21,649 nt of DNA from a virus, in IMG/VR virus record IMGVR_UViG_3300042303_000576, positions 1-21,649 of that record, one strand, 5' to 3'. Positions 1-4,665 of this stretch are shown here, one piece after another. The notes below the pieces were generated by a model. The model made no database searches. It was not told the DNA's origin and worked only from the letters and a program-made list of their open reading frames with translations. A program made the position numbers and the translations under genes. Each line of letters starts with the position of its first letter. Position 1 is the stretch's first letter.

Positions 1-1340
1 CTTGCGTAATTGCGGATGGTGCAGGTAGTTTCTTGCAAAGTGACGCATTTTCTGGTATTGCATATGAATTTGAAACAATTTTTAAAGCAAAATATCCTTT
101 AGAATTTGATACTGTATATAAACATCTCGGAACAAAAGAACCATATGGTATTTTAGATATGGGAGGAGATGGGAAATATTTCTTAACTGAATATCCAGGT
201 CTCACTAAGACATATGAGGCAATTACAGAATATTGTGGTTTTTCTTGCATTGACGCAGGAAAAACTATGGGTCTTTCTCCTTATGGTAAAGAAAATTTAG
301 ATCTTCCGGAATTGTTTAGGGGTAAATGGGCAAACCGAGAAGTTTTTGTTCCAAACTATCCTAATGGATCTCGAATTAATTACGAAAGATTTCCTATCTT
401 ATTTGAAGATTCCAAGAATCATAAGAAAGGTGAATATACTCAGATCCAAAAAGATATGGCATATTCTATCCAAAAGGAAACTGAAAATCGTATGATTGAA
501 TTGATTCGTAAAGCACACGAAGAAACTGGTGAAAAAAATATTGTCGTTTGTGGTGGATATGGTTTAAATTGTGTTGCAAACTATAAGTACTGGAAAGAAT
601 TCCCAGACCTAAACATTTACTGTGAACCCATTTCTCACGACGGTGGAACATCTATTGGTGCTGCAAAATACATGTATGCCAAGATAAATGATCTTGAAGG
701 ACCGATAAATCCTCAGACTTCAATTTATTATGGTCCACAATATGATCCAGATACTTATGAAGATTATCTGGAGGGTCTAGAAGTTTCAGATACCTCTTAT
801 GATGATGTTGCTAAACTAATTCGTGAAGGGACAATCGTAACTATTTTCCAAGGAAGGTCTGAAGGTGGCCCAAGAGCACTTGGCAACCGATCAATACTAT
901 TTGATCCCACGATCAAAGATGGAAAGGACATTGTAAACCAAGTAAAACGTCGTGAGTTTTTTCGTCCCTTTGCCTGTTCGATTCTGAAAGAAAAAGTGAA
1001 TGAATGGTTTGATCTTGCAGGTCGTGAAGAATCTCCACATATGATGTATGCAGTTGATTGTCTACCTGGTGTAGAAGAAAAGATCCCCTCAGTGATTCAC
1101 GTTGATGGAACCTGCCGTATTCAGACAGTAACCCAAGAGCAAAATGAACACTACTATAATCTGATTAGTTCTTTTGAAAAACTAAGTGAAGTTCCCATCC
1201 TCTTCAATACTTCATTTAATCTTGGTGGTGATCCTCTTGTAGAGACTATTACTGATGCGATTGATACTCTACAAAGAAGTGATATTGAATATCTCTATCT
1301 TCCTGAGATTCAGAAACTAGTTAAAGTTCCTAACGAATGA
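1..1340 (+). CDS. NodU/CmcH-family O-carbamoyltransferase, 5'-truncated by the window edge
   Basis: The open frame runs from base 3 without a start, so the true start lies left of the window; about 445 residues are visible, whereas family members are usually 550-600. The family transfers a carbamoyl group from carbamoyl phosphate, through a carbamoyl-adenylate, to a hydroxyl on a sugar or natural product. Visible signatures are the ADGAG stretch at the left edge, CGGYGLN near 550-570, SHDGGTSIGAA near 635-665, the GRSEGGPRALGNRSI block near 853-900 typical of the C-terminal carbamoyltransferase domain, RREFFRPFA near 950, and NTSFNLGGDPLVET near 1206-1250. Its stop overlaps the ATG of the next gene (ATGA), so it is probably translated with the sugar-nucleotide genes that follow. 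The natural inference is carbamoylation of a phage-directed glycan. The acceptor is unknown. Family assignment is firm; substrate is not. Confidence 0.9.
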   Translation, partial: CVIADGAGSFLQSDAFSGIAYEFETIFKAKYPLEFDTVYKHLGTKEPYGILDMGGDGKYFLTEYPGLTKTYEAITEYCGFSCIDAGKTMGLSPYGKENLDLPELFRGKWANREVFVPNYPNGSRINYERFPILFEDSKNHKKGEYTQIQKDMAYSIQKETENRMIELIRKAHEETGEKNIVVCGGYGLNCVANYKYWKEFPDLNIYCEPISHDGGTSIGAAKYMYAKINDLEGPINPQTSIYYGPQYDPDTYEDYLEGLEVSDTSYDDVAKLIREGTIVTIFQGRSEGGPRALGNRSILFDPTIKDGKDIVNQVKRREFFRPFACSILKEKVNEWFDLAGREESPHMMYAVDCLPGVEEKIPSVIHVDGTCRIQTVTQEQNEHYYNLISSFEKLSEVPILFNTSFNLGGDPLVETITDAIDTLQRSDIEYLYLPEIQKLVKVPNE

Positions 1341-1738
1341 AAACTGTTTTTGTAAATGGAACATTTGATGTCCTACACACAGGACATCTTTTGCTATTTG
1401 AATATGCAAAGTCTTTCGGAGATCATTTAATTGTTGCAATTGATTCCGACGAGAGAATTAAAGAAAAAAAGGGACCAACAAGACCCATCAACTCTCTCTG
1501 GGATCGTGCTTTTATGCTATCTAATTTATATCACGTTGATGAAGTTAGGACATTTGACTCCGATGAAGACCTAGAAGAACTTGTGAAATACTACAAACCT
1601 GATATAATGGTGGTAGGATCTGATTGGAAAGATAAACCAGTCATAGGTTCTCAATATGCAAAAGAATTAAAGTTTTTTGATAGAATAGATGAATACTCCT
1701 CAACAAAAACAATTCAAAGTATTATTGATAGGAGATAG
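1337..1738 (+). CDS. HldE2/TagD-like cytidylyltransferase-family nucleotidyltransferase
   Basis: This 133-residue protein has the single Rossmann-like domain of the cytidylyltransferase family. The N-terminal NGTFDVLHTGH stretch carries the HxGH nucleotide-binding motif (H14, H17). It continues with the GDHLIVAIDSD strand, and later has VVGSDWKDKPVIGS (93-105) and SSTKTI (121-126). The last two resemble the GGD..PE.IAGS and STT.II segments at the end of the E. coli HldE C-terminal domain, which makes ADP-heptose from heptose 1-phosphate. The length equals one such domain. The gene starts on an ATGA overlap with the carbamoyltransferase, and its last 50 bases also encode the N-terminus of the kinase downstream. 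A glycerol-3-phosphate cytidylyltransferase role is an alternative, but the adjacent HldE1-like kinase favours a sugar-phosphate substrate. Confidence 0.8.
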   Translation: MKTVFVNGTFDVLHTGHLLLFEYAKSFGDHLIVAIDSDERIKEKKGPTRPINSLWDRAFMLSNLYHVDEVRTFDSDEDLEELVKYYKPDIMVVGSDWKDKPVIGSQYAKELKFFDRIDEYSSTKTIQSIIDRR

Positions 1739-2453
1739 TTGTGAAGATGAATATATTTACGGCAGGTGTGAACGGATTAGTCCTGAAGCACCTGTTCCTG
1801 TAATGAATTTTTCTAGAATAGAAAAAAGAGCAGGAATGGCAGAAAATGTTTTTCATAATCTAAAATCATTTGGATTAACCGTTGGATTTTTAACAAATTC
1901 AGAAAAAATTATAAAAACAAGATTTATAGATGAAAAATCAAATCAACAGATACTTAGAGTTGATAAAGAGAATAAAATATCCCCTTTAAGTGAGAAAATA
2001 GATTTTAATTTTTTTGATGCTATTGTTATATCTGATTACAATAAAGGATTTTTGACTACAGATAAATTATTTGAAATAGTTGAATCTACTGATATCCCCA
2101 TTTTTATTGACAGTAAAAAAAATAATTTACCAAACAAAAATAATTGTTTTATTAAAATAAATGATTTAGAATATGGCAATTTAAATAAAGAAGTTCAGTT
2201 AGATAACTTAATTATAACAAAAGGATCTATAGGATGTTTTTACAAAGATAAACTATATCCAGCAGAAAAAGTAAATGTCTATGATGTAGTTGGAGCAGGT
2301 GATACTTTTCTTTCTGCTCTTGTTTATGGGTATTTAAAATTTAACAGTATAGAAAATGCAATAATATTAGCAAATAAAGCAGCAGCAATTGCAGTACAGC
2401 ATCCAGGAACTTACGTTTTAACAACAGAAAATGCCAAAGATTTATGTAATTGA
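1689..2453 (+). CDS. HldE1-like PfkB-family carbohydrate kinase
   Basis: This 254-residue ribokinase/PfkB protein most resembles the N-terminal kinase domain of HldE, which phosphorylates heptose 7-phosphate at C1. Visible are a first strand VLLIGD, then ERISPEAPVPV (29-38), a pattern characteristic of HldE kinases, SDYNKGFLT (115-123) and the signature DVVGAGDTF (199-207) with the presumed catalytic base D205. HldE kinase domains are about 310 residues, so loops are shortened. The ATG at 1689 is chosen because a later start would remove the first beta strand; this forces a 50-base overlap with the preceding gene in another frame. It overlaps the following phosphatase gene by 23 bases. Base composition is strikingly AT-rich compared with the carbamoyltransferase. 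The sugar substrate is inferred from the HldE and HldD likeness and is untested. Confidence 0.82.
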   Translation: MNTPQQKQFKVLLIGDSCEDEYIYGRCERISPEAPVPVMNFSRIEKRAGMAENVFHNLKSFGLTVGFLTNSEKIIKTRFIDEKSNQQILRVDKENKISPLSEKIDFNFFDAIVISDYNKGFLTTDKLFEIVESTDIPIFIDSKKNNLPNKNNCFIKINDLEYGNLNKEVQLDNLIITKGSIGCFYKDKLYPAEKVNVYDVVGAGDTFLSALVYGYLKFNSIENAIILANKAAAIAVQHPGTYVLTTENAKDLCN

Positions 2454-2766
2454 TATTGATGGTACAATATGTACTAATGGTGATTGTTCTTCATGCAAGT
2501 ATGAAGGAAGTATTCCAAAATTAAATAGAATTAAAAAAATTAATGATCTATATGATCAAGGAAATATAATAAAATATTTTACTGCTCGTGGAATGGGTAG
2601 ATATAATGATGATGCAGATAAATCAAAAGAAAAGTTTTATTCTTTAACAAAAATGCAATTAGATATTTGGGGATGTAAATATCATGAATTAATTTTAGGT
2701 AAACCTTCTGCAGATATATACATTGATGACAAGGCAATAAAAGATGATGAATTCTTCGGAGATTAA
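2431..2766 (+). CDS. Small HAD-superfamily phosphatase, possible sugar-phosphate phosphatase
   Basis: The 111-residue protein has a minimal HAD fold. The DIDGT motif (D8 nucleophile, D10 acid/base) is motif I, FTAR (T51) is motif II, and GKPSADIYIDDKA (K91, D99, D100) supplies motifs III and IV. There is no room for a large cap domain. Proteins of this type are commonly found in capsule or LPS gene clusters. Between a sugar kinase and a nucleotidyltransferase, the missing ADP-heptose step would be removal of the C7 phosphate (the GmhB reaction), so this protein could fill that role, although it is much shorter than GmhB (about 190 residues). It overlaps the kinase gene by 23 bases and the cupin gene by 23 bases, which suggests tight translational coupling. 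Confidence 0.75.
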   Translation: MPKIYVIDIDGTICTNGDCSSCKYEGSIPKLNRIKKINDLYDQGNIIKYFTARGMGRYNDDADKSKEKFYSLTKMQLDIWGCKYHELILGKPSADIYIDDKAIKDDEFFGD

Positions 2767-3103
2767 ATTTGTACCAAAAGGATGGGGATTTGAAAAATGG
2801 ATTGTAAATACTGAAGAGTATTGTGGGAAACTTCTTTATTTTGCTAAGGGAAAGAAATGTTCCTGGCATTATCATGAATTAAAAGATGAAACTTTTTACA
2901 TCCAGTCTGGGAAAATTCTTTTAAGGTATAGTGATTCGGATCAAATAGAAACAGCAAAAGAAGTAGTATTAGAGAAGGGAGATAAGTATCATATTTATAG
3001 AGATCTTAGGCATCAAATGTTTGCTCTTGAAGACACAGAATTATTTGAATTTTCAACTCAACATTTTGATTCGGACAGCATTAGATTAGTTAATGGTGAT
3101 TAA
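2744..3103 (+). CDS. Small cupin-domain protein, possible sugar isomerase or epimerase
   Basis: The 119-residue protein is one beta-barrel cupin. The WHYH...ET segment (H42, H44, E49) followed by FYIQSGK and a later H90 match the usual H-x-H ... E ... H metal-binding set. Small cupins beside sugar-nucleotide genes include mannose-6-phosphate isomerase-like and sugar-epimerase-like proteins, so an isomerase role on a sugar phosphate or nucleotide sugar is reasonable but not shown. The start at 2744 is followed at once by another ATG at 2747; either could be used. Both lie inside the phosphatase gene, so expression is probably coupled to it. The gene ends three bases before the sulfotransferase start. 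Confidence 0.65.
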   Translation: MMNSSEIKFVPKGWGFEKWIVNTEEYCGKLLYFAKGKKCSWHYHELKDETFYIQSGKILLRYSDSDQIETAKEVVLEKGDKYHIYRDLRHQMFALEDTELFEFSTQHFDSDSIRLVNGD

Positions 3104-3106
3104 TTT

Positions 3107-3889
3107 ATGAAACAATTATATTTTTTAAGTGGAATGCAGAGATCTGGTTCCACACTACTCTCTTGTATTTTAAATCAAAATCCAAATATATTTTCATCAA
3201 AAACTAGTCCACTTTTGGACATTTTATCTTCTTGCGAAAAGACTCTTAATGAAGTTTATAATCAATATACATTTGATTATAACCAAAAAAATAAAAATCT
3301 TATTTTGGGAATTTTAAATTCTTATCATGATGATGAAGAAAGTCCTATTATCATAGATAAGCATCGTGGTTGGGTAGGTTCAATAGATTTAATAGAAGAA
3401 ATCTATACACCCAAAATAATATGCACTAATAGATCAGTACCAGAAGTAATTACATCCTTCATTAAGTTAATTGAAAATAATAATTCATTAAATAATTCGA
3501 TAGATAAAGCATTAAGAAATAGTGGATTTCCAATAAGTATAACAAATAGGGCAGATTACATTTTTCACAATTTTGTAAATAATCCAAGACAAGCAATATT
3601 ATCTTCTATTGATAAGTATAGAAATTATATTCATATGGTAGAATATAACGATATTATAAATTACCCAAATGAAACTTTTTCTAAGATATATGAGTTTTTA
3701 GGTATAGAAAAATTTAAACACAACTTTAGTGATATAGAAAATACATGTAAAGAAGAAAAGGATATTGCTTGGGGAATAGAAAATCTTCACGAAATTAGAA
3801 ATAAACTACAAAAAACGAGTACCCCACCAGAGGAGATACTCGGAAAAGAATTGACAGAATATTATCGTCAATTTGACATTAAGTATTGA
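3107..3889 (+). CDS. Sulfotransferase-family protein (PAPS-dependent)
   Basis: This 260-residue protein begins with a beta strand and the loop FLSGMQRSGSTLL (6-18), the 5'-phosphosulfate-binding loop of PAPS-dependent sulfotransferases. A second segment, TNRSVPEVITSFIKL near residues 107-121, fits the 3'-phosphate-binding strand and helix with its conserved Arg and Ser. The family moves sulfate from PAPS to a hydroxyl, commonly on carbohydrates. It follows the cupin gene after three bases and is very AT-rich. Its last 22 bases overlap, tail to tail, the 3' end of the epimerase on the other strand. In this neighbourhood a sulfated glycan is the likely product, but the acceptor is unknown. A phage using this enzyme would depend on host-made PAPS. 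Confidence 0.8.
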   Translation: MKQLYFLSGMQRSGSTLLSCILNQNPNIFSSKTSPLLDILSSCEKTLNEVYNQYTFDYNQKNKNLILGILNSYHDDEESPIIIDKHRGWVGSIDLIEEIYTPKIICTNRSVPEVITSFIKLIENNNSLNNSIDKALRNSGFPISITNRADYIFHNFVNNPRQAILSSIDKYRNYIHMVEYNDIINYPNETFSKIYEFLGIEKFKHNFSDIENTCKEEKDIAWGIENLHEIRNKLQKTSTPPEEILGKELTEYYRQFDIKY

Positions 3890-4665
3890 TTAACTGTTTT
3901 AAATTTATAACTGCCAGTCCATTTCATATCCGCACAAGTATAATCTTGATATTTACCTTTAAGATGTTCGGGGAAGTTGATATATTCAATTTCCCCTTTT
4001 TCTTTTTCAGCAACTAGTTCTGCAACTTTTTGAAAACTTATCGGACTTCCTGTTCCTAAATCATAAATTCCAGATGGTTGATCATTATTTAAAACAATGT
4101 CAATAATATCATCAACACAAATAAAATCTCTTAAAAACTTGTCTGATCCTTTGAATAATTTTAGTTTTCCTGTTTCTTTGATTTGTTTGGTGAATTTGCT
4201 TATTGGACTTGCCTGGTCTCTTTTATGATCTTCCCCTTCACCATAAACATTAAAATATCTAAAACCTTGAATACTTGAAAATTTATCTAAATTATCTTGA
4301 ACAAAATAATCTATTTGCAGTTTTGTAATTGCATAATAATTTAATGGATTGATTACCTTTAAGTCCTTTGTTTGATTTCCATATACTGATGCTGAAGATG
4401 CATACTTTACTGGAATTCCATACTTAATTGCTTTTTCAAATAGAAATAAAGTAAATGCCACATTAGAGTGATGTAGAGTTGTTATATTTTTTTCAGTAGT
4501 ACTAGAAATTGCTCCTTGATGGAGTATTAATGATACTTCATTCCATCTATCAAAGTTACTAATAAAACTATATGCATCATCCTTTTCGACTTCTATTATT
4601 GGATCATTTATTTTCTTTAGAAAATTTTTACCAATAAATCCTTGACTTCCTGTTAATATTATCAT
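3868..4665 (-). CDS. ADP-L-glycero-D-manno-heptose 6-epimerase-like SDR (HldD/RfaD-like)
   Basis: This 265-residue extended short-chain dehydrogenase/epimerase begins TGSQGFIG (5-12), the GxxGxxG dinucleotide-binding motif. It has HQGAISSTTE (49-58), which parallels HLGACSSTTE of E. coli HldD, then ASSASVYG (89-96), the YxxxK pair (Y111, K115), GFRYFNVYG (134-142), KLFKGSDKFLRDF (169-181), GIYDLGTG (199-206) and FPEHLKGKYQ (231-240) near the end. These line up with HldD segment by segment, which makes it more specific than a generic epimerase. HldD is about 310 residues, so this version is compact. It is the only leftward gene in the window and converges on the sulfotransferase with a 22-base overlap. 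It probably converts ADP-D,D-heptose to the L,D form; substrate identity is inferred from sequence likeness. Confidence 0.85.
   Translation of the reverse strand: MIILTGSQGFIGKNFLKKINDPIIEVEKDDAYSFISNFDRWNEVSLILHQGAISSTTEKNITTLHHSNVAFTLFLFEKAIKYGIPVKYASSASVYGNQTKDLKVINPLNYYAITKLQIDYFVQDNLDKFSSIQGFRYFNVYGEGEDHKRDQASPISKFTKQIKETGKLKLFKGSDKFLRDFICVDDIIDIVLNNDQPSGIYDLGTGSPISFQKVAELVAEKEKGEIEYINFPEHLKGKYQDYTCADMKWTGSYKFKTVNQYLMSN

Follow-up and report, generated by a model that had tools for sequence, protein, structure and literature searches.

An ADP-heptose-type gene cassette in a T4-like cyanophage, with a cupin as candidate isomerase and a GT9-fold gene upstream

Why does a virus of cyanobacteria carry genes of heptose biosynthesis, and which molecule could receive the sugar? 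The question is raised by a 21,649-nt virus fragment (record IMGVR_UViG_3300042303_000576), which is referred to here as the window. Its terminase shares ~76% identity with the terminases of Synechococcus phages S-CREM1 and S-H38, and the virus is therefore a T4-like cyanophage. A review (PMC4390846) states that the lipopolysaccharide (LPS) of cyanobacteria lacks heptose and 3-deoxy-D-manno-octulosonic acid (Kdo), a general statement that does not address the host of this virus. We consider it probable, if far from certain, that the cassette at positions 1337-4665 makes ADP-heptose and passes the sugar to a GT9-fold transferase encoded upstream, and that it is carbamoylated on a virion fibre or a host glycan. 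Families were assigned with curated NCBIfam/TIGR equivalog models, Pfam, PHROG, and profile and fold searches against solved structures (PDB). The first 11.4 kb of the window recur at 99.8% identity in another contig, L015, which reaches 7.3 kb further left, so that the neighbourhood upstream of the window could also be read.

HldE- and HldD-type genes beside the virion genes

A sequence-only reading of the window had placed an HldE2-like nucleotidyltransferase, an HldE1-like kinase, a small HAD phosphatase and an HldD-like epimerase just left of the virion genes. All four are found there, with gp13 and gp14 adjoining the epimerase (Table 1); two further genes in the same interval, a cupin and a sulfotransferase-like gene, had been overlooked. 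The plus-strand genes overlap and their order is conserved in cultured cyanophages, which argues against a chance grouping.

The assignment to ADP-heptose enzyme families also holds, as judged by the wide margins that separate the best curated matches from the next ones. The nucleotidyltransferase scores 110 bits with TIGR02199 (HldE domain II) versus 63 bits with the next specific family, TIGR01518 (glycerol-3-phosphate cytidylyltransferase), aligns with HldE2 over its full length, and contains the LHxGH, RPIN and SST (STT-type) motifs. The kinase scores 157 bits with TIGR02198 (HldE domain I) versus 50 bits for ribokinase, the next non-HldE family; its best solved structure is Burkholderia HldA (4e84; E=6.5e-18), and the catalytic GAGD motif of PfkB kinases is retained as VGAGDTF across the kinase members aligned. 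For the epimerase, the scores are 213 bits with TIGR02197 (HldD) and 39 bits with GalE, the next non-HldD family, and E. coli HldD is the best solved structure (1eq2; E=3.5e-45). The catalytic Tyr and Lys are conserved. An HldD-specific Lys, which we take to be K178 in E. coli and the second catalytic residue that distinguishes HldD from other epimerases, occurs in every HldD-type protein of viruses in the comparison (27 of 27, counting that of the window) and in none of seven other epimerase-fold proteins from the same loci. CDP- and GDP-sugar subfamilies, the matches that would have spoken against heptose, gave lower scores for both nucleotidyltransferase and epimerase and were rejected. In L015, a frameshift splits the epimerase gene (L015:11180-11976); the window copy is intact, and the frameshift is probably an assembly error.

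The cultured phages P-SSM2, S-CAM3 and S-SSM7 carry the same cassette beside tail-fibre or gp13 genes, and much of it is found inside sugar islands in P-TIM68, Sf-CH8 and S-SM2. A genome announcement also mentions heptose genes in a cyanophage, SynMITS9220M01 (PMC7378029), and the presence of the cassette was therefore already known in outline. The annotated heptose genes of these phages (P-SSM2, S-SSM7, S-CAM3 and SynMITS9220M01) belong to the same families as those of the window, and in the first three the gene order is much alike. The earlier annotation differs from ours in calling the HAD a phosphoheptose isomerase and the cupin a cysteine dioxygenase or a nucleotidyltransferase, and in leaving the GT9-like gene hypothetical. 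What is added here is the absence of GmhA, the cupin as a candidate in its place, a sister group with GmhB and fused HldE, and the pairing of a GT9-fold gene with a carbamoyltransferase.

Table 1. Genes of the cassette and its surroundings (window coordinates unless prefixed with L015).
Feature	Position	Strand	Remarks
GT9-like gene	L015:5851-6945 (outside window)		Directly upstream of the carbamoyltransferase; PHROG 8954, labelled unknown
NodU/Nol-type O-carbamoyltransferase	33..1340	+	Truncated by the left edge of the window; full length 564 aa, L015:6958-8652
HldE2-like nucleotidyltransferase	1337..1738	+	TIGR02199, PHROG 7878; proposed step heptose 1-P to ADP-heptose
HldE1-like PfkB-type kinase, shortened	1689..2453	+	TIGR02198, HldA 4e84; proposed step heptose 7-P to 1,7-bisphosphate
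Small HAD phosphatase	2431..2766	+	TIGR01689 EcbF/BcbF, PHROG 1238; proposed for the GmhB step
Cupin	2744..3103	+	PF07883; candidate ketol-isomerase replacing GmhA
Sulfotransferase-like gene	3107..3889	+	PF13469 51 bits, above cut-off; possible decoration
HldD-like ADP-heptose 6-epimerase, shortened	3868..4665	-	TIGR02197; proposed step D,D- to L,D-heptose
gp13, gp14, other virion genes	from 4748		Adjoining the epimerase

The cupin and the small HAD

The cassette shares HldE1-, HldE2- and HldD-type enzymes with the textbook ADP-heptose pathway and departs from it in three respects: (i) a cupin is present and GmhA is not, (ii) an EcbF/BcbF-like HAD takes the place of GmhB, and (iii) HldE is split and shortened.

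GmhA, the isomerase that in the sequence-only reading could lie upstream or come from the host, was sought with two families of the SIS fold. It was found in none of 54 distinct records of related viruses, among which are six complete genomes, and in none of the open reading frames of the 7.3 kb directly left of the window, while 3 of 3 bacterial control genomes were positive at E<=1e-53. A GmhA elsewhere in the virus is thus rejected for the records searched, and the overlooked cupin is the better candidate. It belongs to PF07883 (Cupin_2; 32 bits, above cut-off) and reaches only 14 bits with Lyx_isomer. Its metal-binding residues H42, H44, E49 and H90 (the H-x-H, E, H set) are invariant in 40 members, D-lyxose and L-ribose isomerases are among the best solved structures in sequence and profile searches, and a structure model with a predicted local distance difference test (pLDDT) score of 93.7 matches the folds of CapF, D-lyxose isomerase, KdgF and phosphomannose isomerase. 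The conversion of a ketose to a manno-aldose, which is the type of reaction performed by GmhA, is also that of D-lyxose and phosphomannose isomerases. Based on the absence of GmhA, the isomerase-like matches and this shared chemistry, we infer that the cupin is the best candidate for a ketol-isomerase substituting for GmhA at the first step. The label cysteine dioxygenase, attached to the cupin by PHROG, found no support in Pfam, NCBIfam or the fold search and was rejected.

Alternatively, the host may supply the isomerase and the cupin may do something else, such as epimerizing or regulating, a real possibility that we nevertheless rate as the less probable case. Cupins are functionally very diverse, and the GmhA search spanned virus records and control genomes rather than the real host; on the other hand, the same search detected no GmhA in the control genome of Synechococcus elongatus, cupin and kinase stay together in both clades described below (small-HAD and GmhB), and a bacterial relative of the cupin lies above the cut-off for the phosphomannose isomerase family, PF01050. 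Bacterial relatives sit in other sugar clusters and so lend only loose support to sugar isomerase chemistry.

The cupin has other surroundings as well. At L007:10670-13978 and in L195 and L197-L201, which include both phages and bacteria, its neighbours are a gene for a class II aldolase or a GatZ-like protein, a HAD that is either KdsC-like or small, and a sugar nucleotidyltransferase of another kind; these clusters perhaps represent a second route to a nucleotide sugar, one that begins with a ketose phosphate.

The proposal that the small HAD stands in for GmhB fared unevenly. The HAD has a weak match, at 37 bits, to the EcbF/BcbF family of capsule phosphatases (TIGR01689) and none to the GmhB models TIGR00213 and PRK08942; its PHROG 1238 label, phosphoheptose isomerase, was rejected, since Pfam and NCBIfam identify an EcbF/BcbF-type HAD. 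The proposed role is supported by a sister clade of viruses. Among 99 distinct loci with the kinase near the cupin, 83 hold the small HAD only, 8 GmhB only, 1 both and 7 neither, such that the small HAD is absent in 8 of the 9 loci with a true GmhB. The sister clade encodes the same cupin and HldD, together with HldE at 268-312 bits (its adenylyltransferase domain reaching 171) and GmhB at 138-141 bits; in most of its members the kinase and a textbook HldE2 domain form one fused protein, the two being separate in L148 and L154. As judged from sequence, these viruses would thus possess the textbook ADP-heptose pathway, including fused HldE and true GmhB, with only GmhA exchanged. The exchange between GmhB and the small HAD therefore argues for heptose as the product, and for the small HAD acting at the GmhB step in the clade of the window.

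Two side observations concern fused HldE and GmhB-like proteins. A gene that appears Nudix-like by eye adjoins the fused HldE in eight loci (for example, L137:8378-8854). In four GmhB-like proteins (L120:6916-7524, L121:12743-13351, L124:7354-7962 and L125:12743-13351) the first catalytic Asp of the DxD motif is replaced by Gly (GIGRDG), and these may be dead enzymes; L120, L121 and L124, with at least 7 kb of downstream sequence, contain no other heptose genes near the GmhB-like gene.

A GT9-fold gene, a carbamoyltransferase and fibre genes upstream

The suggestion to look for glycosyltransferases left of the window proved fruitful, as L015 contains a GT9-like gene there. The protein itself scores 19.7 bits with PF01075, under the gathering score of 22, and sequence-only searches against solved structures gave no match; however, among 40 relatives there are 28 with a PF01075 match at E<=0.05 (the lowest being 1.8e-7), and the 30 best solved-structure fold matches of its AlphaFold2 model (pLDDT 87) all belong to the GT9 heptosyltransferase family (WaaF, WaaC, TibC and Veillonella GT9; E=2e-10 to 4.5e-7). 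Only the combination of Pfam over the relatives with the fold search settles the assignment. The likeness to WaaC, WaaF and TibC lies in the overall fold and in a C-terminal DS..QH-type motif; unlike in TibC, no beta-barrel or iron-finger is seen within the sequence length of the viral protein.

The carbamoyltransferase that links this gene to the cassette has both Pfam domains of NodU/TobZ-type O-carbamoyltransferases above cut-off (PF16861, 201.6 bits; PF02543, 66.1 bits, and 87.8 bits for the full-length L015 copy). It immediately follows the GT9-like gene in 74 of 75 loci, and in 47 of 54 a Cys/Gly-rich fibre-like gene is located at most 2.5 kb upstream of the GT9-like gene. The expectation of most of a route to ADP-heptose was thus borne out and at the same time understated, as a GT9-fold transferase and a carbamoyltransferase accompany the cassette. 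A similar combination of a carbamoyltransferase gene with heptose and GT9-type genes is found in Pseudomonas, where the carbamoyltransferase WapO carbamoylates LPS core heptose (PMC8005017); the system described here differs in being virus-borne, with hosts reported to be heptose-free. A protein acceptor also has a precedent, since the heptosyltransferase TibC heptosylates an adhesin (PMC4358343).

Would the sugar be placed on the virion, or on the host surface as a means of superinfection exclusion? The sequence-only reading had left both purposes open, and the order of the genes speaks slightly for the virion fibre. Remodelling of a host outer-membrane glycan by ADP-heptose (or ADP-D,D-heptose), for example against superinfection, with fibre neighbours that merely reflect the hypervariable tail-fibre region, appears unlikely to us. 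It would fit the action of WaaC and WaaF on LPS and a second arrangement in which the kinase, nucleotidyltransferase, HAD and cupin genes belong to islands that also contain glycosyltransferases and further genes for sugar nucleotides, with GT9-like or fibre genes nearby in 0 of 56 loci. In contrast, the GT9-carbamoyltransferase pair of the window type follows fibre-like genes even where heptose genes are lacking, and a GT9-like relative that shares the Arg at the N-terminal catalytic position (see below) lies among the tail genes of a Vibrio phage.

GT9-like genes related to that of L015 occur in 31 Vibrio phage records, and in Vibrio phage D505 a short GT9-like protein with PF01075 above cut-off is encoded among tail genes (L176:6983-7720). 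No Vibrio phage is among the matches listed for the HldD and kinase homologue searches, as would be expected if Vibrio makes its own ADP-heptose.

Several other neighbours are worth recording. The fibre-like proteins encoded at L015:1669-2742 and L015:3437-4519 contain 34-39 Cys per ~360 residues, which is unusual for phage proteins. L015:4540-5235 and L015:5232-5795, taken with the gene at 3107-3889 of the window, comprise two sulfotransferase-like genes and one Asp/Asn beta-hydroxylase-like gene; the sulfotransferase-like gene of the window is restricted to close relatives (L015/L016, L017 and L098), and these genes flanking the cassette possibly provide further decoration in this virus and its closest relatives. 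Finally, pairs resembling heme oxygenase and ferredoxin-bilin reductase by eye, as in cyanophages, lie beside the GT9-carbamoyltransferase pair at L123:6428-7592, L120:7552-8725 and L134:14083-15271.

Proposed route and its standing

From the gene families, their conserved order, the absence of GmhA, the exchange in the sister viruses and the fold prediction, we infer what each enzyme does, when carbamoylation takes place and which molecule is the acceptor. Sedoheptulose 7-phosphate would be drawn from the Calvin cycle or pentose phosphate pool of the host and isomerized to heptose 7-phosphate by the cupin in place of GmhA. The short HldE1-like kinase would then phosphorylate heptose 7-phosphate at C1, the small HAD would remove the C7 phosphate in place of GmhB, and the HldE2-like enzyme would adenylylate heptose 1-phosphate to give ADP-heptose, which the HldD-like enzyme would epimerize. 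The GT9-like protein is predicted to transfer the heptose, and the NodU-type carbamoyltransferase to carbamoylate the heptose or the glycan. The neighbouring Cys/Gly-rich fibre-like protein would be the most likely acceptor, and a host surface glycan a less likely one.

Several observations weigh against this route. The nucleotidyltransferase, kinase and epimerase of the window find their best curated families here, yet each scores under the equivalog cut-off (181.5 for TIGR02199, 345 for TIGR02198 and 274.6 for TIGR02197). The kinase has 254 residues versus about 315, an internal HldE1 block being absent in all phage members aligned, and the epimerase lacks ~25 residues of the NADP-binding part (between query residues 23 and 26 relative to 1eq2); a shifted substrate preference relative to bacterial HldE1 and HldD is therefore possible. 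The top fold match of the cupin is CapF, which is not an isomerase, and the fold is common to many enzymes. On the kinase tree the GmhB loci form one deep clade, so that the swap between GmhB and the small HAD is essentially one event rather than many, and a Fisher test of HAD against GmhB is inflated by this kinship. Heptose genes are not nearby in 9 of the 45 GT9 loci with 7 kb of downstream sequence, and a profile comparison of the GT9-like protein with one WaaC was weak. Moreover, WaaC, WaaF and TibC have a catalytic Asp in the N-terminal GD motif after the first strand, whereas this residue is Arg in 40 of 40 GT9-like relatives; the viral protein is therefore described as having a GT9 fold and is not classed as a proven heptosyltransferase.

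That enzymes of heptose-pathway origin have come to use a different sugar phosphate, such as a hexose or 6-deoxyheptose, and yield another ADP- or CDP-sugar would agree with the low scores, the shortened kinase and epimerase, a HAD that is not GmhB, and the bacterial and some phage loci where the cupin adjoins an aldolase and an unrelated sugar nucleotidyltransferase, but seems improbable given that sister viruses keep a near-textbook GmhB and fused HldE2 and that the HldD catalytic Lys is kept. The observation behind the sequence-only reading is thus confirmed and its interpretation partly supported, and synthesis of ADP-heptose for the GT9-fold transferase is the reading we retain. A more specific proposal, which we offer tentatively and regard as rather doubtful when taken whole, is that cyanophages use a cupin-started variant of the ADP-heptose pathway to place carbamoylated heptose, a sugar the host does not make, on their own tail fibres by means of an Asp-less GT9-fold enzyme.

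If true, these assignments would correct a label copied over many cyanophage records, which would then contain no phage phosphoheptose isomerase, and would assign the first step of heptose synthesis to a new enzyme. The hypothetical family PHROG 8954 would gain a function, that of a GT9-type transferase associated with fibre genes, and heptose decoration of virions by phages of heptose-free cyanobacteria becomes testable.

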